Origin: Sipunculus nudus
Taxonomy: Eukaryota > Annelida > Sipuncula > Golfingiida > Sipunculidae
Length of the DNA stretch: 64,000 nucleotides
Reading direction: 5' to 3'
NCBI GenBank assembly: GCA_026874595.1
Contig: CM049313.1
Coordinates: forward strand, 77,634,659-77,698,658
This document shows positions 1,370 to 34,661 of the stretch, in pieces. Position numbers and translations under genes: made by a program. How positions within the stretch are numbered: position 1 is the stretch's first letter; each line of letters opens with the position of its first letter. The notes under the pieces are model-generated. The model was not told where the DNA came from, made no database searches, and worked only from the letters and a program-made list of their open reading frames with translations.

Positions 1370-3993
1370 TTTTGAATACCTCCATCATTGCCACTTGAGG
1401 TATATTTAATTTTAAAATTGAATTTAAATTAAATTAAATTTTTTTTAATATATTAATTTTTTAATCTTGGATAGCATGGAATGAGGTATATTTAAAGTAA
1501 TGACCTTGACTATGTAAGTGACCTTGACCCTGAATATTTCCATATTTGGTGAAAATCATAAAATTAATAAATTTAAAACATAAAATTAAAAAAAAAACTT
1601 TTTTTATTAAAAATTTTCTTTTTTAATCTTAAATTCTTTTAATTTTGACAGAATACTTTTGCACCTGTTAATACCCCACCATTGCCACTTGACAGCACTG
1701 AGCATGATAAATTAAAAACTAAAGGACAGATTTCTTTCATATCATGCATATATATATTTTTGAGTTAAAAAAAAAACTTTTTTTAAATCTTTGATTGTTT
1801 TGTCTTCTGCAGAATACAGGTTGCGCCACCTTGTGTGGTTTCTTGCTTTCGCAACTTGTAATACCCCACCATTGCCACTTCAAGGCACTGTGAGCATGAT
1901 AAGTTGAAAACTAATGGAAAGATTTCTTTCATATCATGTACCGTAAATTTCGGCATATACGTCGACCCCGTGTATAAGTCGAGGTGGGATTTTGAAGAGA
2001 GAAATCGGGAGAAAATTTTAAAGAGCCCACTGAGTCTGGATAGTCCCCGGCTCACAACAGATAAGTATATGAAAACCAATGGAATGAGTCATTTAAAAGT
2101 CGCACCAAAAAATAAACTTACGTGAATAGTTGTCAGGCTACAAGTACCACTACCACTGCTTGTAGTGCAGGTAACATTCCCTTTCAGTAAAGGTCAAACC
2201 GACTGGACGCCCTGATTTATAGCTGAAAGTGAAACCCCCAGTAAGGCCCGCTGTGTGACGACGTAGGTAACAATATTAATTAACATGGGTTCACGGTCCC
2301 TTGTCGCTTTCAAATGAACAAAGTCGTTTCCCGAGTGTTATGAATAAGTATCTATGTAAGTATGATATGAGTAAGTATATATACGTAAGTCTATATAGTT
2401 ACAGACATAATTCCATATAAGCTTTGAGAACAGACACTTCTTTATACCAACGGCATAAAAGTAGTCATACATTTTCCCGGAAGATGTCGCAACTGTTGCC
2501 TGAAAATAAATGGGGAAATTGACAACCAAACGTCAAGGAGACCGTTCTGCTTATGAGAAAGGGGAGAAGCTGAATTCACATTATTTCGTGTTTGTATTTT
2601 ATTTTCTGTACATAAATATGAACAAGATTTGCTCTTCAAATGTTATGAATAGATACATAACGCAAGACTAAATAACTTTCATTTTAAACCTTTCAGAACA
2701 AGTGTTAATTTGTCACCGCTATAAAAAAATAGTCAACTATATTCCCGTCAGGTGACGCCAATGTTGTGTAAAGAAAAATGGAATCTAGAATCAAAGATCA
2801 AGCTCAAGTTTGCCGTTACTGCTTATCTGACAGTGGATCAAATAAAATAATCTTCAGCAATGTTCAGAATTGATAACCTGTGAATGAAAATATGATATCC
2901 GTCATAGTTTTGTATTTTTAATCCCAGTACTTAACAGACTGCGGATTTATCAGCTACTCGATACGATCGCTGGCTGAATGGAACACGTATCTCGTCTGAC
3001 TTGTTGGGCGACCACAGTTCTGTGCGGGTCTTTGCTATCATCATGGCATATAATTCCAAGCTAACTGATAATATTTTAATTGTCTGAAGAATCAGTTATG
3101 AAACCATTGCGCTCTGAAGACCGACGACCTGTGTCAATGGGAAAATGGCTTTGAAGTTCACCCGAGTTCGCCCGCCTTTTGTCACCTGTTCATATTCACA
3201 AACAGCGGCCCGTGGTCATTTGCGTGTTTGCTCGGTTGTGCAAGCATCAAATGTTGTTGCCGAGCAATTCTTAAACAGACTTTGATGTCGAATACACTGA
3301 GGTCGATGCCATTGATAAAATCTCAATAGGTTACGCAATACTCGTGCCTCTTGCACCCATGCTCAATAGCCCATGAATGAAGCTCGTTAATAATAAATCA
3401 GGCGCGGGGTCACGTGGTGGTTGTCGGCATCCAAGTTTATCACATGAATTTTTATATATTGCATTATCCAATTAAAAGGACAACGTAAATGGCCGATCTT
3501 GAAAAAAAAATATTATGGAAGTCTAATTCCACAGTATTTAATGACTGAAAGGGCCACATATGTTCCTGGCATCCCCGGAAACGAACATCTGATGAGCGAT
3601 TAGGCAAGTCCTATCTGCGTCAGCCGGACATTCAGGTCGGCAGTTTGACGAAGTCTGGGTAAAATTTGGACTGTCAGGCTTATACCCGCACATAAGGCGA
3701 CCCTCCATTCCTGGATTATTTTTTTAGGAGCAAATTTCTTGACGTATATGCGGAAATTTACGGTACATAGACATGGGTTATGGAATGAGATATATTTCAG
3801 TTTGGATCATGACCTCTCCTATGAGAGTGACCTTTACCTTAAATATGCCTATACTATAAGAAATCATGGTGGCTTGCCAAGTGTCAGTCTCTGCATCTGA
3901 ATTCAAGATGGGATCCTATTCTTCGAGGCGGGGGGGTGGGGGGGTTAATTGTCTGGGGATACCATGGCACCTGTGGTGCCAAGAAATATCTAG
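1370..3993 (+). mobile_element. Old Helitron-like copy, 5' end not found, interrupted at 1941-3763
   Basis: The sequence on either side of the 1941-3763 insertion is a diverged relative of the better-preserved element at 9934-13093. Both share the phrases ATTGCCACTT, ATTTCTTTCATATCATG and CATGGGTTATGG, and paired 'gacctt' runs. The 3' end shows the Helitron-type terminus: a perfect 6-bp stem GGCACC-TGT-GGTGCC at 3966-3980, nine spacer bases, then CTAG at 3990-3993 followed by T. No protein is encoded, so it is a non-autonomous copy. The left boundary is uncertain; 1370 is where similarity becomes visible by eye. Confidence 0.55.
1941..3763. mobile_element. Non-autonomous TIR DNA transposon with TA target duplication
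   Basis: The termini CCGTAAATTTCGGCATATAC (1941-1960) and the inverse of 3744-3763 match at 22 of 23 positions when extended to 23 bp, with one G/C difference. A TA dinucleotide flanks both ends (1939-1940, 3764-3765). Removing the element with one TA rebuilds a continuous copy of the surrounding repeat (ATCATG-TA-CATAGACATGGG), comparable with the uninterrupted relative near 10400. TA duplication fits Tc1/mariner-type transposition, but no transposase is encoded in the 1.8 kb. Family assignment is therefore inference. Confidence 0.8.
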
Positions 3994-4698
3994 TTATATC
4001 ATATGAGTTTCTAATACTATATATGTGCAAAGGCATGATTAACATAGGAAATGCTAGTGAGGCTTCAGTATAAATGACTCTACATCTGTGTGGGGTAGGT
4101 GTCTTAAGTATTAACAAAGGTTTTGATTTGGTGATAGTTTCCCTTTTGTGAATATAAAAAAAAATTTAACCCAGAGGCCAAAAAAAGGGTATGGTTCCCT
4201 GGCACTTTTTTTAAAAATCAGTGCGGATGGGCAAGATTTTGTTTTACCTTTTTTTGTATGTTTTGATAAAAAATGTCATATGATCAGGGAAATGCATGAT
4301 AATAACAGAAAATTTCTGCCAAACAGGTAAAAGCACTTCATAACAAGGAAATCTTATCAAAATTGTATTATTTAATCTCCTTGAACAATGAAAATCAAAA
4401 TAAAAATTACCTGTACTCACCTGACAAACAGGAGTACTGTACCATACATGTTTAAGGTCACCAAAGTACTGATTCTGCATGAAGTATATTTACCTCTTAA
4501 TAAGAGCTGATCATTTCACAAAAAGTGTCTGTTGCAGTTTCTTTGTAATTATCTTTTATATAAACATCATATTTTATACAACTTTTGAGTATGTAAAAGT
4601 GCAAAATCAATCTGAACAACAGATGTGTGTTTTTCTGTAATATAATCTGTATAGTAAAGGTTTAAGACATTCTATATCCATACAAAATGACATTTCAG
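3994..4698. other. Intronic sequence upstream of the penultimate DCAF12 exon
   Basis: AT-rich sequence between the Helitron-like 3' end and the splice acceptor at 4697-4698. Short ORFs here lack homology I can recognise. No other DCAF12 exon was found to the left, so the preceding exon probably lies outside the window. Confidence 0.6.
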
Positions 4699-4844
4699 GT
4701 ATCCGATCAGTGAGCTTCCGTGAGCATATCATCACATTTGGCACTGGGGCAGGCAGTGTGTACTTTTATGATTTGAGAACCTTGAAATACCTAGACTGTC
4801 ACTGTGGTCACCTATGTCACCTAGATGTTGGAAAAGGATGGCTG
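4699..4844 (+). CDS. DCAF12: DCAF12, penultimate coding exon (WD40 region)
   Basis: This 146-bp exon encodes the peptide from IRSVSFREHIITFG through VYFYDLRTLKYLDC to DVGKGWL. I recognise this as the late WD40-repeat region of DDB1- and CUL4-associated factor 12, a substrate receptor of CUL4-DDB1 ubiquitin ligases that recognises C-terminal di-glutamate degrons. The acceptor is TTTCAG at 4693-4698 and the donor is CTG|GTGAGT at 4845. The first two bases complete a Gly codon begun in the previous exon, and the exon ends in phase 0, which matches the next exon at 39749. The reading frame has no stops. The short HCGHLCHLD insert differs from the vertebrate protein as I remember it. The upstream gene is outside the window. 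Confidence 0.9.
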
Positions 4845-5502
4845 GTGAGTTGTGTTTGTTTTAAATTACAGAAGAATCTCTGTGATAAAACAGCCTGTGG
4901 GATTGTGGTCTTTTTATACAGGGTAACTGTAAATAATTCAAATGCTTCATGGTTTATTCAAGGGTGGTCTTTATAGGCAGATGGTCTTTGAGACAGGTTC
5001 TACTGTGCATGAAAACAGTAGGAGTTTATGTTTACATGTTTGATAAAACTTCCCGGTTTTGAGTGTAAGGACCAATGATCAAGGTCTGTCAGCCCTATGG
5101 TCAACAAGTGAATCCATAGCCTCATGCATTGATTTAAATTACCTCTGCCAAAGAGGTTATGTTTTCATCTTTGTCTGTTTGTCATTTTGTTTGAATTAAA
5201 TTAAAATTTTTTTCCTGGAATTAAATGTACCTAGTTAAAGGACCAGACATCTTGCTGCTATAAAAACCAGCACTAAATGCATATATTCATAAATGTTGTA
5301 GCTAGGAATGCTGGGTAATATATTTATTCCCCTGGCTATGGCTTAAACTATTTGGGTAACTTTAATGTCTTATGTGCAAGCTCTCATTAAATATTGTGAT
5401 TTAACAGTGAAACAGCTTGTAATTAGATCTCATTTCGTGAAGCTCTGAGACCATAAACTCATTCCCACCATTTGGTGCCCAAGCACAGTTACTACACACT
5501 AG

Positions 5503-6689: not shown

Positions 6690-9600
6690 GAAACCGTAAG
6701 ACCTAGGAATCCAAAATTCAGCATAATGTTAGATGTCCCCAAGATCTCCTACCAAGCCGAAAACTGGGTCTTTGCGACTTCATTCCTTTGAGAAATTAAG
6801 GAAAAACCTCAATTTTTTATTAAAAACCTATTTTCACACTTCAGGACTGCCTTATATCAAAACCACTCATCTGTTTTTCCTCATATTTCCTATAAATAAT
6901 CCTCTTTATAATTCCAATGTACATGCCAGAAATTAGGTCTGTATTATATAATTTAAAAAAGTTATGGGCCCAAACATGATGCATTTTGTAAATAATCAGG
7001 AAAGAAATTTTATCACTTAACACAAAACTTGTTAAAGCTAAGCACTTTTTTTCCAGTAATATTACTTTTATTAATCAAAATTAAATTGTATACCCAAAAT
7101 AAGATCAAAATCTTTAAAATTTTTTAAAATATTAGCAAAAATAAAAAATTGGTACCTTAAATTTTGCCCAACTTTGACCATGGCACGTTTTTTTGCTGTA
7201 ACTGCTGTGGATTTAATTTTCACAGCATGTTTTTGTTAGCATTTCAACTGTTAACACCAAAAATTTGAAACCAGTTGATCAAAAACTGTAGATTTTATTC
7301 AAGTTTTCAAGCACCATGTCACATATTGCTAGTGTTATGCAGTTTGCTAGAGCTCAGCTCCCGAGCTTCAGCTCTAAGTTCCTTAAATTTGGCATACAGT
7401 TGGATTTCTCCAAAATCCCCTATCATGCCAAGAATTTGGTCACTAGGACTTAATTCCTTCGAGATATCAATGAAAAACTTCATTTTTCCATTAAAAACCC
7501 ATTGTTACACTTTAAGACTGCCTCATATCAAAACCACTGATCTGACTTTGATTATATATAATATACATATTTTTCTATACATTCGCTATGCACATGCCAG
7601 AAATGATGTCAGTATTGTGTATTTTTTTTAAGTTATGGGCCCAAACATAATGCACTTTTTTAAAAATCAAGAAATATATTTACTCACCTTAGATGAGAAT
7701 TGCTGAAGCTGGAGACTTTTTGTCAGGAATATAACTTTATTTAATCAAGATTCGATTGTTTACCCAAAATTAGATCTGAATTTTGCAAATTTTTCAAGTT
7801 ATTAGCTTAAATAAAAAATCAATACCCTTAATTTTGTCCAACTTTGCCAATGCCATGTTTTTTTCTGTAAGCACTGTTGATTTAATTTTCGCAGCATATA
7901 TACATTAGGATTTAATCTTTTAAAATCTGAAATTTCAAAGGAATTGATTGAAAAGAGTAGCTTTTATTCAAGTTTTCATACACCATGTCAAGTGTTGTTT
8001 ACATCTAGCCCACCTAGTAGTAAAGCCTTCACTTGCATTATGTAACCCACCCCAGGCAGCTTGTCTTGGCTCAGCTGGGCCACTACTAGCAGGCTTCTTC
8101 TCTGCCCTGCTCACCCTCCCCCCCCCCCCCCCCCTAGATGATGCATTAACTAGATGAATGTTATAATTTTCTGTATTTCATTTTATTCTTGGCTATGCTA
8201 CTATTAAGATTTTGTATTTACCACCAGGGTTACAATGATTAAAGTACACATTTAATTGTGTCCACAAAGTGGTGTATTGCTATGAAAGTGTGGATGTTCA
8301 TCAGATAAGTAATTCCTTCCTTGAGAAGAGTAAAAACTTCACAAGGTGTGAAATTTACTATTAATTCCAGGAATAAATTAAAGCTTAGATTGTAATTAGC
8401 ATAATGATATTGTTTGTCCCTCATTCAACCAACAGTGTGTATACTTTATTTGAAAAGATGTTTTTATTTTACCAAATTTACAGAATCTTATTTTATTTTG
8501 GTGAATAAGATTAAGCATGTACTGAAAACTCCAATGTGCAAAACTTTTTAATAGTGATTCAAGGAATAATCTTGCAGATGCCATGTTGTGGCATTATTTT
8601 CTTTTAAATTCAGTTTAAAAATTTGTGATTTAAAAATAATAAAAATATATGTGTATGCATAATATGACCCAATACGAGCTACACTCTGGATGTATAATAA
8701 TTGCAACTAAGAATTCTAATATTTTAACTTATATTTTCAGTGTTTTTTTAATACAAATTTATAAAACTTGTAAATAAAAAAAATTAATCAGATAAAAACT
8801 ATTTTAATGGAAAAAGTGGATATGCTTAAATAATATATAAACTTAATTGTATTATTCCCTTGAATGTGAAATAAAGGTATTAGTCCAGACCTAGGAATCC
8901 AAAATTCGGCATAATGTTAGATGTCCCCAAGATCTCCTACCAAGCCGAAAACTGGGTCTTTGCAACTTCGTTCCTTTGAGAAATTAAGGAAAAACCTCAA
9001 TTTTTTATTTAAAACCTATTTTCACACTTCAGGAGTGCCTAATATCAAAACCACTTATCTGTTTTTCCTCATATTTACCATAAATATTCCTCTATATAGT
9101 TCCTATATACATGCCAGAAATTATGTCTGTATTATTTAATTTTAAAAAGTTATGGGCCCAAACATGATGCATTTTGTAAAAAATCAGGAAAGATATTTGA
9201 TCCCTAAACACAAAAAAGTTAAAGCTATGGACCTTTTTTCCAGTAATATAACTTTAATTAATCAAAATTAAATTATATACCCAAAATTAGATGAAAATCT
9301 TTTAAATTTTTTAAAATATTAATAAAAATAAAAAATTGGTACCTTAAATTTTGCCCAACTTTGACCATGGCACGTTTTTTATACTGTAAGTACTGTGGAT
9401 TTAATTTTCACAGCATGTTTTTGTTAGCATTTCAACTGTTAACACCAAAAATTTGAAACCAGTTGATCAAAAACTGTAGATTTTAATCAAGTTTTCAAGC
9501 ACCATGTAACATATTGTTTACATCAAGCTAGTGTTATGCAGTTTGCAAGAGCTCAGCTCCCCATCTTCAGCTCCAAGTTCCTTAAATTTGGCATACAGTT

Positions 9601-27832: not shown

Positions 27833-27845
27833 ATGCCCGTATATT

Positions 27846-28215
27846 CCCTACTCTTTTGCCGGCTGTTGTCATATACCCATTAGTCAAGCAGATCCGTGCA
27901 GAAAAGCATAAGCATTGTGGGTTTTGTGGAAAAAGCATGAAATTTGGCACACATATAGAGTTTTCTATACTGAAAAATATTGGATATAGAGCCAATCGCG
28001 AAAATTCAAAATGGCCGCCATTTTCCAAGATGGCGGACATGAGTCATGAAAAATCGCTAATAAATAATTAAAAAAATCAGATTCGATGATATCTGCCTGA
28101 AAATTTGCACTAATGTGGAGATTTTTATAAAGAAGAATACAAGATGTATAAACAATTAAAAAATTCAAAATGGCCGCCATTTTCCAAGATGGTGGACGAA
28201 TTATGAATAATCTCG
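27846..28215 (+). repeat. Left inverted terminal repeat of the nuclease transposon
   Basis: Landmarks AGTCAAGCAGATCCGTG, GTGGGTTTTGTGGAAAAAGC, GAGTTTTCTATACTGAAAAA and GCACTAATGTGGAGATTTT appear here and in inverted order at 34095-34446. I judge similarity at roughly 80-85% by eye. A 12-base insertion relative to the right copy is present near 27898. A further related subrepeat at 28216-28355 lies just inside, so the subterminal region has a period of about 155 bp. Confidence 0.85.
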
Positions 28216-28791
28216 AAAAAATCCGAACAATTTTGGATTTGGTAAAAAAAAATGCATGAAGACTTGCACTTATGTGGAGATTGTAATAAACAAAACAGAA
28301 GCTGCACCTGCAATTGAAAAAGTGGTCGCCATTTTCCAAGATGGCGGACATTGCGCAAAACTATAATTCGATATGCGCGGTTGTACGTATCATCGCTGCA
28401 ACGGCAAATATCGCATACATGTCTTTTACTTACTTATTGAAAGAATTGTATCAAAATAATGTACATGTATCTAATAGACAATGTACCTGTCAATCGTAAA
28501 GAGCACGAAATACTCCTAACTATAAATAATTATTCTAATTCCATTTTGATATTATTTTCATGAAGGAAATAGTGTAATTTGAAGTACATCAGAATTTGGG
28601 TGTAAAATGTTAGCGTTGACTTGGTACGTACGTATGTGTGTTTATGTTATGAATGAAAGTTTATGACAAGGTATGTTTTAATTCAGTTCTAAAATACCCC
28701 ACATTTAATTCTATGTTTGCAAGTATTTTTAAGCACAGTCAAAGTACAGAGAATACATGTCTGACATGTAACATTTCCAGAAGTATTCACT

Positions 28792-29346
28792 ATGTCTGAG
28801 GCACAATCCAATGTTGAAGCTGCATCGGCAGATTCTTCCACCTGCCAGTTGGAATGGGACAAGTGCGTTATATGTCAACAAAATACATCAGAGGTACTTC
28901 AGTGTCCAATGGACTCAAAACGTACAGACATCGATGCAGGACTTGGATACAGCACACTGTTGAACAATGTCAGACGTTTTCATGAACTTGGTTGTTTACC
29001 AGTAAAACCGAAATTTGACGTTTCAAAAATTGAACTAGGCACATTAGTTGAGACCTTCAAAGAAAAACAGGCGAAACTGCACAAGACATGTAACACCGTC
29101 TCCAATAAAACAAAGCTACTTCGAGCTGAGAGAAGAAAATCCACTGAAACCGAAAGTGAAGCCAGCAGCATTACCAAGAAATGTACCCGGAAGGCGTGTA
29201 GTACTGTTGCTGCCGGTCCAGAGGGTGCCTGCTTTTTCTGTGATGACACGTCCGGGGACCTGCACAAAGTGGCAACGTTTCGCCTCGATCAACGTGTCAG
29301 AAAGTATGCGTCTATGTTAGAAGCTATCTTAGTGCCGCTGATATGA
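28792..29346 (+). pseudogene. Nuclease-transposon protein, N-terminal zinc-binding fragment
   Basis: This open segment begins MSEAQSNVEAASADSS after ATTCACTATG, a plausible start; no earlier in-frame Met extends the similarity. Two Cys/His modules are visible: CVICQQNTSEVLQCP with LHKTC downstream (residues about 25-100), and CFFCDDTSGDLHK (about 147-160). The HxxxC partner of the second module falls in the next segment. Paired CxxC...H/C modules suggest nucleic-acid or protein binding. A single-base frameshift near 29325 moves the protein to the frame used from 29343, where it continues as AADMIAQDAVYHISC. Confidence 0.7.
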
Positions 29347-30529
29347 TCGCACAGGATGCGGTATACCACATCAGCTGTCTGTGCACATTATATAAGAAAG
29401 CTGACAGAATGCAGTCCAGTAAAGACGAGAGCAGCAAAGAGAGAAGACTTCATGGTATAGTTCTAGCAGAACTGCTGTCATACATAGAAGATACGAAGCT
29501 TGACAATACAACGGAGACCAACGTATTCAAGTTAGCGGACCTCGGTAAGATGTACACATCCCGCTTTGAACAACTGGGTGGTGCTATGAAAACTCGACTC
29601 CATACCACTGAGCTCAAGAATAGAATCCTGGCACATTTTGAGGATATGGAAGCCCACAGACAAGGTCGTGATGTCTATCTTGCTTTCAAGGATGACGTTG
29701 GCTTTGCACTAAAGATGGCCTTTGAAAAAGATTATGATGACGAAGCAATCACCCTCAGCCAGGCAGCAAAAATTGTGCGTAAAGATATGCTCGACGCCAA
29801 CAAAACAGTATTCAGTGGTACATTTGACAGTCAGTGTCAAGAAACAGCTGTGCCACAATCCCTTGTAACCCTGATTGCAATGATCTTAGGTGGGCCAAAT
29901 ATTGTGACACAATCTGAAAACGTGGTCGAGACACAGGCAGTCCTTACCATAGCACAGTTGCTACAGTACAACTGCACCATTCGTCGGCGTGAAGGATCTA
30001 CTGCCTCTTACCATAGCCGGAATCGTGAGCCTCCAGTAGCAGTATACGTTGGAATGTTGCTGCATGCAGAAACCAGGACACGGGGACTTATTGACAATAT
30101 GCATTCTCTAGGAATTCGGTCTCCTACGATCGTGTATTGGCTCTGTCCACTGACATGGGAAGCGCTGTCTGAGATAGATTTGAGGAAGAGCAAGTCGTTT
30201 GTCCCGCTATACTTAGAACAGATCTCTTCACAACCGCGGCCGTCGACAATATTGACCATAATCCGAGTTCAAACACATCTCAGGGATCCCTACATGGTAC
30301 AGGTATATCCATATTCCAACACACTGATCTTGGTTCCAAGGGCAAGGAGCGCACACAGGTGATCCTGAATCCCGACGGTACGCGTCGTAAGTCAATCGCG
30401 CCACTCCCTGAAAGTTATACATGTGTCCCACCAGCGTCACTTCGAGAGAAGGAGCCCACAGTACCAAACGTCAACACCCCACTGATAGGAGCATGTACAA
30501 CAATACCTGGAGCCATCCAAGAACAATAA
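29343..30529 (+). pseudogene. Nuclease-transposon protein, second segment
   Basis: After the frameshift the protein reads AQDAVYHISCLCTLYKKADR and then an alpha-helical region with no domain I can name. At about 30118 a one-base loss shifts the frame again; the continuation VSYDRVLALSTDMGSAV meets a TGA at 30170-30172, probably a mutated Cys codon. It then reads on openly through VDNIDHNPSSNTSQGSLHGT to the TAA at 30527-30529. The stretch 30530-30860 does not continue the protein and is either an intron (donor-like GTTTGT near 30532) or an insertion. Confidence 0.65.
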
Positions 30530-30861
30530 AGGTTTGTGTTGTGCTACTGACGCAGAGTATGATGAAATACATATTCATATACATGGATGTATATAGTAGC
30601 CTAGACCTAGCGAGTAGATTAAACTACCATAGTTCGTACTTCGTACTATGTAGGTGTGTGTATGCAATAGCAGTAGATTTAGGGAAGTTCATAAAAGTAA
30701 TAGAATGCTCATAACCCTGCTTTGCTATTGGTGTTAGCATAGATGGCAGCGCACAAATTGTAATACATGTAGTGGTGGTGGATTACTATTACATAACTTG
30801 TCCTAACGTTTCTTTTATGGTGGCTCAATCATGTAAAACAAATCCATGAAGATGACAAGGA

Positions 30862-32231
30862 GCCAGACAGTCATGGGCAGCATTCCACGCAAGCAATGTG
30901 ATAGAAGAAGTATCGCCAACCGACATTAATGCATTGTTGCCACTGTTTCAGGATCAAGCTCACTCACCTGCAATGATTAAACACTCAATGAATATCGTTA
31001 AACAAAATGTAAATTTGCTCAATCCTGGCCAGATTCCTGTTGTAGTTTTTGATCAACCACTGTATGCCTTAGCAAAGTTTGTACAGTGGAACTGGCCAGA
31101 CACACACGGTGAGAGTCATTTTGCAGTGATGCTTGGTGGTTTACATACAGCATTTAGCACACTTGGTGATTGGATGGAGGGCAGTGGATGGACCGCTGCT
31201 CTCACGGAGGCAAATATTGCAAATCCAGGTACAGCTGACTCTTTCTTGAAGGCGACACACGTATCACGAACCAGACATGGGCACCAGGTGACCGCTTGTT
31301 GTCTGCATATCCTTATGCAAAAGGCTTACGTTCAACATATAGAGGGCCTTTCCGACAATGAAGACCTACCCACTTTCGATGCCTGGAAAGCCACGATGAT
31401 ATCGGAGCATCCTCAGTTCCAGTACTGGTCGTTAACTCTAGATTTTGAGTTGGCTATTCTCAACTTTGTGCAGTCTATTCGACAGGGAAACTTTCAGCTG
31501 AACATTGACGCTTTGGTGAAGCTGATGCCATGGTTCTGTGCCTTGGACCACGTGAACTATGCACGCTGGGTCCCAGTTCATATTCGGGATATGCTGGCCC
31601 TCCAAGAAACACATCCTGATGTGGCTGCACACTTCAAACAAGGCCATTTTGCTGTGACGAAGTCCCTGAAGACTTTCTCTGCAATTTCCATAGATCACGC
31701 TCACGAACAAAATAACAAACTCGTGAAGGGTGATGGAGGCGCAATTGGCTTAACGGATATTCGTCGGCACTTCGTCGCTGGATGGTTTCTGGCCCGGAAA
31801 TTTCTCGTGTCATACACGAATTTGAAGCATCTCAGGAACTGATCAAAGTGAACCAAAGTAAAGGTCCTAATATCCTGCATCATGAGCAGACAAAAGGGGT
31901 ACAGAAAACCTTCAAGAAGCAAGTCTCTGATTTGTGCACTACTATTGAGAAGATAGGAAATCCATTCCTCGAACAGAGCAAAGACTTGCTTGTTCTAGAT
32001 AGTAGAGATATCCTTGATAAGCAGGTGGCAGCAACTGTCAAAAACATCGAAAGTATTGGGCAAGATCAATAACAGCAGTTCGTCCAAGCCAGGCTAGGCA
32101 CATCAGAAGCAAGAACAAGAACACTCTTCGACCTAATTCGCAAAAACAAGTTACCATTGTTCAGTCGACCACCAGTGAAAGAGTTGTCCAAAGAAAAAAC
32201 AACAGATATGTTCTCTGAAGCAGAATTGTTC
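30862..32231 (+). pseudogene. Nuclease-transposon protein, middle segment
   Basis: Reading resumes before the Met at 30898 with SWAAFHASNVIEEVSPTD, and runs to HAHEQNNKLVKGDGGAIGLT. Features include the highly patterned WNWPDTHGESHFAVMLGGLH. A frameshift at about 31762 continues as LRRWMVSGPEISRVIHEFEA. A TAA at 32070-32072 interrupts IGQDQ|QQFVQARL, after which the same frame is open again through SRPPVKELSKEKT. The end is a 7-bp tandem duplication ATTGTTC at 32225-32238 that shifts the frame into the nuclease segment. I do not recognise an enzymatic domain here. Confidence 0.65.
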
Positions 32232-32232
32232 A

Positions 32233-33718
32233 TTGTTCTCACAGCTGTATGTTTCCTGCCAGGTGCGCTGTGGAGACCTTGAAGAATTTTTTAAACACGA
32301 AAATCAGTCTAGTCCGTCATCGTTGTCACAATTTGGAGAAATCAGGTCAGGAACGAAGTCAACCTTGGTATCATGCATTGAGAAGGGGTTAGCAAACACA
32401 GACGTGAGACCAGAAGTTGATGCTATACTCCTCGACGGTGCAGCTCTAGTCAACATGCTAAAGCCTGGTGTTTGCAAGACTTTCCTGCGCTATGCGAAAG
32501 ATGTATTCTTGAAATACATCAGGTCACAACTGCAAGAAGTCAAAAGAATCGACCTCATTTGGGATGAGTATCTGCCAAATAGCCTGAAATCGACAACAAG
32601 AAGCAGAAGTGGAAAGGGTATTAGGAGACGTGTAACTCCGGAAAGTAAGCTGCCTGGCAACTGGGAAGCATTTCTCAGACTTGACGAGTACAAGAAAGAA
32701 CTATTTAAGTTCTTGGCAGAGCAAGCCATGACGGTTATTTCTGCTGGAAAAGAAGTTGTATCAAGTCATGGTGGCAACGCTCTCAGCACTTCACAACGTA
32801 GCCTCAGTGAAATGTCTCCATGCACGCAGGAAGAGGCCGATACGCGTCTTCTGCTTCATGCCGCAGATTTTGCCAGGCAGGGTTGTACCCGACTGATGAT
32901 TCGCACAGTCGACACAGATGTCCTCGTGATAGCAGCAGCTGTTTTCCATCATTTAAATCTACAAGGTGTAGCTGAATTGTGGGTAGCATTCGGCACTGGG
33001 AAATCATTTCGCTATATTGCTGTGCATGCTATTGTTACGTCGTTGGGCCAAGAGAAAGCCAGCGCTCTGCCCGTCTTCCATGCAATTATTGGCTCGGATC
33101 AAACTTCCTTCTTTGCTGGTATAGGAAAGGCCACTGCATGGGAAACGTGGAATATCTACAACGACGTCACTAAAGCTTTCATTGCTCTCAACACAGCCCC
33201 AGACATTCAGGCTATAATAGAGAACATGCCTGTTTTGGAGCGATTTGTTGTTCTAATGTATGACCGAACCAGCACCTGCATGAGCGTTAATATAGGGAGC
33301 ACGAAAGGCATTGTTCACCAAAAAGGGAAGAGCCATGGATGCTATTCCACCCACTGCTGCAGCACTACTGCAACATACCAAACGTGTAGCATATCAGGCT
33401 GGATATATCTGGGGACAGGCCTTGTCTTCAACAGTGGAACTGCCTTGTCCGAGTGAGTGGGGTTGGAAAAAATCCCCCAATCAATCCTGGAAACCTGAAT
33501 GGACAACACTTCCTGAAGCATCAAAGTCTTGTCTTCAGCTCACAAAATGCGGATGCAAAGTGCAGAATGGTTGTAGAGGAAGATGTAAATGTGTCAAAGC
33601 AAACCTGAGATGCACAGCGCTCTGTGCTCGCGGTGGCGATTGTGAGCGCTCAGCAAAACTTTATAGTGGCTCCCAATCTAGTGTATGTACATCTGCGCTA
33701 CCCAATGTATGTATGTAG
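32233..33718 (+). pseudogene. XPG/FEN1-like (PIN-fold) nuclease domain plus CXC-like cysteine-rich tail
   Basis: The open segment 32233-33456 has the order expected of an XPG/FEN1 nuclease. EVDAILLDGAAL (about 61-72) and RIDLIWDEYLPNSLK (about 105-119) resemble the N-region acidic residues and the Lys/Arg that follow. EEADTRLLLHAAD (about 200-212) and TVDTDVLVIA (about 225-234) resemble the I-region acids. IIGSDQTSFFAGIGK (about 285-299) resembles the GxD...GIGxxxA helix-turn-helix. A frameshift near 33296 continues as GRAMDAIPPTAAALLQHTKR, then PSEWGWKK, and a tail CGCKVQNGCRGRCKC with LRCTALCARGGDC, like a CXC zinc-binding domain. Catalytic activity is inferred from motifs only, and this copy is broken. 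Confidence 0.7.
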
Positions 33719-34094
33719 CAAAAGCAAAAGAACACTGACATTTTGACATCCTTCTTGCTTCTAATCACTTAACTGTCTTCTGGTTATTTTTTATCATTGG
33801 CAACAAAACAAAATAGTTCTAAAGTAATAAAAAATAAAAATAAATAAAATATATCACAATCCACTTATCATTTTATGCATTCCATTTTCAAAAGAAACTT
33901 AACACTTACCTGTCTCACCTTGCAAATATCCAGTCGTCTTCGGCTGTACATTCCACTGCTTGCAGCCAGCGTTGTCCTCGGATGTACATTACACTATCTT
34001 GCATGTCTTAATGTAACTAAAATCACCTCTATATAGCTTTTGTTTTCACAGCGATGTGATGTTGGGATATTACTCAAGTGATAGGGCCTATAGC

Positions 34095-34446
34095 TATATT
34101 TGCCATAATTCGTGTCCGCCATCTTGGAAAATTTTGTATTTTTTTCAATTGTTTACACATCATGTATTTTTCTTTATTAAAATCTCCACATTAGTGCAAA
34201 AATTCAGGCATATATCATCAAATCTGAGTTTTTAATTATTTATTAGGGATTTTTTAATGACTCATGTCTGCCATCTTGGAAAAAGGCGGCCATTTTGAAT
34301 TTTTGCGATTGGCTCCATATCTAACATTTTTCAGTATAGAAAACTCTACAAGTGTGCCAAACTTCATGCTTTTTCCACAAAACCCACAATTGTTACACGG
34401 ATCTGCTTGACTACATACAGATATGTCCTTACGATCAGAGTTCATT
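34095..34446 (-). repeat. Right inverted terminal repeat of the nuclease transposon
   Basis: The inverse partner of 27846-28215, sharing the landmarks listed there in reverse order. It carries two of the GCCATCTTGGAAAA motifs (about 34124-34140 and 34270-34295). The outermost 10-15 bases match poorly, so the exact transposon tip is fixed mainly by the flanking CCCGTATATT repeat. Confidence 0.85.
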
Positions 34447-34456
34447 CCCGTATATT

Positions 34457-34661
34457 ATACATTGCAAAACATGCATCTTATTATCCATAAATCTGTCCAT
34501 TAAGTTTACCAAATGTATAAACAGCGTTTAGTCCTAGAACTGTAATGTTGTAACTTTGACTGCTACAGCCCCACGATTGCCAGGCCCCAATTTTCCCTTA
34601 GCATCTTCATTTTCCCGCAAAAATCAAAGAACACGTGCAAGCCAGTCCTCAGGTACAAACA
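34457..34661. other. Unassigned spacer between nuclease transposon and element D
   Basis: This is the right flank of the nuclease transposon's insertion site; by the nesting it should once have been continuous with 26160-26402. No gene is seen. Confidence 0.5.

Follow-up and report, generated by a model that had tools for sequence, protein, structure and literature searches.

Among Academ DNA transposons, the AcademX and AcademH lineages were reportedly defined by Kojima in 2020, the nuclease of AcademX being of the XPG type. Passages of a published account (PMC10045372) give target duplications of 3 or 4 bp for AcademX and of 9 or 10 bp for AcademH, and link this difference to the encoded nuclease versus helicase. 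Passages of a second account (PMC10294476) list Academ as one of the 17 DDE/D superfamilies used and describe it as rich in bivalves, the curated bivalve Academ elements averaging 5,565 bp. In this study, we analyzed a 64,000-nucleotide stretch of the Sipunculus nudus genome (hereafter the window; GenBank assembly GCA_026874595.1, contig CM049313.1, positions 77,634,659 to 77,698,658 of the forward strand), in which an earlier note had described a transposon with an XPG/FEN1-like nuclease as its only recognizable enzyme. We propose that this element very probably belongs to the Academ superfamily of cut-and-paste DNA transposons, and there to the nuclease-carrying AcademX type, of which it represents a full-length, decayed copy. 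Its 3-bp target duplication, its nuclease-like domain, and the lack of a detected helicase all match the published description of AcademX. We regard it as a new family within an already described kind of transposon, and not as a new transposon system.

RESULTS

Borders and target duplication of the element

The transposon had been placed at 27836..34456 of the window, between the two copies of a 10-bp direct repeat taken as its target duplication. The element is real, and its borders are corrected to 27881-34413 (Table 1). In a whole-genome search (1.43 Gb, 153 contigs) with window positions 27836-28200 as the query, similarity to the other copies of the element starts at query bases 44 to 47, and query bases 1 to 45, with CCCGTATATT, match 16 other listed places and belong to a different, dispersed repeat. 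The 10-bp pair CCCGTATATT (27836-27845 and 34447-34456) lies 35 and 33 bp outward of the termini, and it is found in copies of this host repeat that the element does not occupy, both members being exact in L017 and L018 and the first only in L016 and L019. The pair thus belongs to the older repeat, and its distance from the termini together with its presence at unoccupied sites rules it out as the target duplication. Three of the four unoccupied copies examined (L017-L019) have CCCATACAG at the insertion site, the fourth (L016) being diverged there, whereas the occupied site in the window reads CCCAT-[element]-CATACAG, which identifies a 3-bp CAT duplication. Around the element, window positions 27836-27880 and 34414-34613 lie in the older repeat, of which L016-L019 are other places.

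The long inverted termini enclose a single broken gene, as had been reported: the outermost 18 nt (TAGTCAAGCAGATCCGTG) are inverted at 100%, and the next arm on the inner side, of 266 nt, at 86%. Across both termini, the motif CCAAGATGGCGGAC occurs at five sites with at most two mismatches (0.16 expected in the window), within 28025-28349 and 34114-34279 and at a spacing of ~150 to 160 bp. These are candidate protein-binding sites, and the motif resembles a YY1 site.

Copies and relatives in the genome

The same termini enclose the same gene in six full-length copies (the window copy, one on C12, two on C2, one on C4, and one on C1) with pairwise identities of 96.9 to 99.3%, and the left end was found at six other places of the genome; one copy, C2b, is without the first T. 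These copy numbers are lower bounds. Five of the six full-length copies are flanked by an exact 3-bp duplication (CAT, TTT, GAG, TAT, and TAA). In a related family (L020 and L021) with termini TAGTCCAGCAGA and an exon 2 that is ~55% identical, both copies have a TAT duplication. Altogether, exact duplications of 3 bp, not 10 bp, flank 7 of 8 full-length copies (six of this family and two of the related one), a count that leaves aside the C13 copy (L010, left end only) and the copy at C2:79.32 Mb (L015, right end seen).

Relatives of exon 2 extend down to ~29% identity in this genome, where scoring of 48 among 836 first-look candidates yielded 63 matches. A distant relative at ~29% identity, L063 (G000:C14:48706200-48710200), has a long uninterrupted frame, and no inverted termini of at least 20 nt framing it were found in this 4-kb interval; it may represent a lineage of its own or a host gene that arose from such a lineage. 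Two further relatives came from a prokaryote collection, namely L068 (JAJRVU010000273.1), on a contig filed under a Planctomycetota metagenome-assembled genome and matching exon 2 residues 29-953 at 29% identity, and L069 (NZ_CAHJWD020000426.1), in an assembly of a Bathymodiolus (mussel gill) symbiont. Both are probably eukaryotic DNA inside assemblies filed as prokaryotic.

Gene structure

The gene is uninterrupted in copy L011, which has two long open frames of 600 and 957 codons and, between them, a predicted 288-bp intron that starts with GT and ends with AG; the joined exons give ~1,535 amino acids counted from the first methionine. In the window copy, the predicted intron retains the GT donor and has TG as the acceptor, versus AG in L011. 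Compared with P0001, the exon 2 protein, exon 2 of the window copy holds three TGA, three TAG, and one TAA codons internally, and an AAA codon where the final stop should stand. The CXC-like cysteine cluster at the C terminus and the N-terminal Cys residues, both pointed out earlier, are kept across the family; for the cluster, Pfam TCR matched relative L068 at no better than E = 1.1. In agreement with the earlier note, the Pfam matches of the seven plus-strand open reading frames (ORFs) of the window copy and of both L011 exons contained no helicase, minus-strand ORFs (at most 131 amino acids) not having been scanned. Pfam matches of both L011 exons and of L068 up to E = 10 included no KDZ (Kyakuja-Dileera-Zisupton) family, for which Pfam presumably holds a model.

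A probable DDE core in the middle of the protein

Conservation was read from two sets, one of 42 rows (28 copies, overlapping loci included), in which the query-anchored pieces of each locus were joined and stops written as X, and one of nine representatives below 80% identity. L068 and L069 stand outside the 42 rows. Because of stops, L065, L064, and L049 were excluded from alignment A1, which thus keeps 7 of the 10 sequences originally given. Three acids of the middle region, probably catalytic, form an almost invariant D...D...E series split over the two exons (Table 1); among the nine representatives, D500 is kept in 5/5 and D88 in 7/7 of those with a letter, and E309 in 8/9. Moreover, the Pfam family DUF6589 matches the middle region of relatives, with E = 1.8e-6 in L065 (27.4 bits, cut-off 27) and more weakly in L030 (0.0084), L048 (0.023), and L068 (0.003). 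Given this near-invariant series and the DUF6589 hits in some relatives, the view that the element has no DDE motif was not upheld.

Across the genome, DUF6589 matched at 45 places, including two that also match exon 2 (C3:52481001 and C1:928846). At the best place, L067 (G000:C3:42844500-42854000; E = 1.5e-39), the DUF6589 ORF (3671-5335, plus strand) lies 1.8 kb from a Helicase_C ORF (E = 8e-13; 7136-7948, minus strand), on the opposite strand; element ends were searched for around L067 and none was found. L067 looks like an AcademH-type element, and this arrangement, as expected of AcademH, suggests that DUF6589 is a transposase core shared within Academ. A single literature search found no paper on DUF6589.

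A FEN1-like order of acids in the C-terminal region

In the C-terminal part of the protein, with residues numbered along exon 2, D552, D595, E685, D687, D711, D713, and D773 follow the order of human FEN1 D34, D86, E158, E160, D179, D181, and D233. The local spacings are the same as in FEN1 (E-x-D/E, D-x-D, and D-6-GxG), the GxG lying at +7 from the last acid in both. The acids in FEN1 order and the GxGK turn had been noticed before; we found them largely conserved in relatives down to ~29% identity. All six aspartates are D in 9/9 representatives, and E685 is E in 8/9. Among the 42 rows, counting those with a letter, conservation is 41/42 for D552, 38/38 for D595, 41/42 for E685, 40/42 for D687, 42/42 for D711, 37/42 for D713, and 40/40 for D773. 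A pattern of the FEN1 order occurred in 1 of 5000 shuffled sequences for P0001 and in 6 of 5000 each for L068 and P0002, the pattern having been composed after the protein was seen. Of five FEN1 sequences tested, it misses three.

In a local hhalign alignment, D595, D711, D713, and D773 stand opposite FEN1 D86, D179, D181, and D233, and both glycines of the GxG stand opposite G240 and G242; the E pair is shifted by two (E685 opposite E160), and D34 is uncovered. The alignment of FEN1 acids thus holds for four of them, without a significant score. From these motifs, the C-terminal domain is likely a FEN1/XPG-like nuclease.

Table 1. Features of the transposon and of its gene, in window positions
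Feature	Position	Strand	Basis or remark
Target duplication CAT (3 bp), left copy	27878..27880		Flank comparison and unoccupied sites L017-L019
Element, 6,533 bp	27881-34413		Inverted termini begin TAGTCAAGCAGATCC
Terminal inverted repeat, left, ~325 bp	27881..28205	+	Starts TAGTCAAGCAGATCCGTG; recurs elsewhere in the genome
Exon 1	28792..30531	+	Start by homology with L011; frameshifts and stops in the window copy
N-terminal Cys/His modules (exon 1)	28864-28881, 29230-29247, 29364-29384	+	
First probable catalytic acid, D500 of P0002 (exon 1), VDNIDHN	30245..30247	+	D in 30/30 rows with a letter
Predicted intron, 288 bp	30532..30819	+	Comparison with L011; predicted from sequence
Exon 2	30820..33658	+	DUF6589-like/probable DDE region, FEN1-order nuclease region, CXC-like cluster; frameshifts and stops in the window copy
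Second probable catalytic acid, D88 of P0001 (exon 2), VVVFDQP	31051..31053	+	D in 35/38 rows with a letter, N in 3
Third probable catalytic acid, E309 of P0001, DHAHEQNNK	31705..31707	+	E in 40/42 rows, V in 2
Putative FEN1/XPG-like nuclease core	32434..33129	+	Motif conservation, exon 2 alignment
Putative nuclease acids D552, D595, E685/D687	32434, 32563, 32833/32839	+	
Putative nuclease acids D711/D713, D773	32911/32917, 33097	+	
GxGK	33118-33129	+	
C-terminal CXC-like cysteine cluster	33530..33655	+	Family alignment
Terminal inverted repeat, right, ~310 bp	34104..34413	-	Ends CACGGATCTGCTTGACTA
Target duplication CAT (3 bp), right copy	34414..34416		Flank comparison

DISCUSSION

Altogether, these findings argue for the placement of the window element in AcademX, with which it shares the nuclease-like domain, the lack of a detected helicase, and a 3-bp duplication (3 or 4 bp in AcademX); no difference was found in this comparison, which was made by description. 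AcademH may share the middle region through DUF6589, as judged from the relatives and from L067, and differs by its helicase and its duplications of 9 or 10 bp; no helicase was found among the scanned ORFs of the window element and its duplication is 3 bp, and AcademH was rejected for it. The domain agrees with FEN1, XPG, EXO1, and GEN1 in the order and local spacing of its seven acids and in the GxG turn that follows the final acid, and differs in lying beyond Pfam XPG_I and beyond a significant profile match, and in being fused to a probable transposase. The contrast with Academ drawn by the earlier note relied on the wrong duplication and on the assumption that helicase and nuclease co-occur, and its proposal of a distinct undescribed group gives way to a probable DDE core in the middle region and to features that fit a named lineage.

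Several results weigh against this reading, beginning with the nuclease region. None of the 11 genome matches of Pfam XPG_I falls at the listed places of this family; the hhalign comparison with FEN1 was not significant (probability below 1%, with 8 of 200 column-shuffled profiles scoring as high), and the middle region, used as a control, scored higher against FEN1 than the nuclease region (25.0 versus 18.3). Both fold models of the protein were poor (predicted local distance difference test, 36 and 48), so that the fold prediction proposed earlier is unreliable, and the fold searches were run on a low-confidence model only. These points speak for the C-terminal domain being an unrelated acidic domain and not a FEN1/XPG nuclease, a question independent of the superfamily. 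We nevertheless consider this improbable, given that the seven acids in FEN1 order, at equal local spacings, are kept in eight or nine of the nine representatives and that the local profile alignment, for all the shift of its E pair, sets four of them and the GxG against the matching FEN1 residues.

Further points concern the core and the ends. DUF6589 has no match to the window ORFs, P0001, P0002, L032, L047, L012, or L063; comparing the profiles of the core and of L067 directly was unsuccessful, leaving the Pfam model as the link between them, and the neighboring DUF6589 and helicase ORFs of L067 form one element at most presumptively. C2b (L012, G000:C2:12165085-12171613), which lacks the terminal T, also has no target duplication, possibly because its end was damaged or because copies recombined. 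Membership in Academ, which we still regard as highly probable, draws on anatomy, duplication length, and DUF6589. A separate lineage near the published Academ superfamily but outside it, with the same nuclease and duplication length, would agree with DUF6589 scores that are weak or absent in close relatives of the window family and with a comparison to published Academ proteins by description. We hold it to be quite unlikely, because both features that the published passages give for AcademX, the nuclease and the duplication of 3 or 4 bp, were found here as far as tested. Least probable is a distinct, undescribed superfamily that has no DDE enzyme and moves solely by means of its structure-specific nuclease: no Pfam transposase model matches the ORFs of the window copy or those of the uninterrupted copy L011, and no solved structure was credibly matched by sequence comparison, but the near-invariant D-D-E in a region matching DUF6589 in some relatives, the constant 3-bp duplications, as from staggered DDE integration, and the fit to the lineage as described in the published passages all speak against it.

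For the AcademX-type element, we propose a model in which the Cys/His N terminus and the CXC-like cluster would bind DNA or chromatin, and the DDE core, split over two exons (D500, D88, and E309), would free the 3' ends and join these, with a stagger of 3 bp, to the target DNA. Cutting of the complementary 5' strand, or trimming of the 5' flap once the ends are joined, would fall to the fused FEN1-like domain. It is possible, although we put it forward with considerable doubt, that strand cleavage at each end of the transposon is divided between two different enzymes within a single fusion protein: the 3' strand would be cut and joined by the DDE core, and the 5' strand would be cut, or the 5' flap removed after joining, by the FEN1-like domain. 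If so, the FEN1-like step would take the place of the hairpin, or of the second cut by DDE, that is seen in other eukaryotic cut-and-paste elements. A division of labor of this kind is found in Tn7, where a second nuclease acts beside the DDE enzyme; the likeness is one of idea, two nucleases for two strands, whereas the nuclease fold is another and the window system, known here from its sequence, would be one polypeptide.

Our study assigns an element of striking appearance to a lineage that has already been described, and it shortens the target duplication from the 10 bp first reported to 3 bp. Its interest lies in the pairing of a probable transposase and a FEN1-like nuclease in a single protein. 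The Sipunculus nudus genome, with many related copies of which one is uninterrupted, may constitute suitable material to study the role of the FEN1-like nuclease in Academ transposition.

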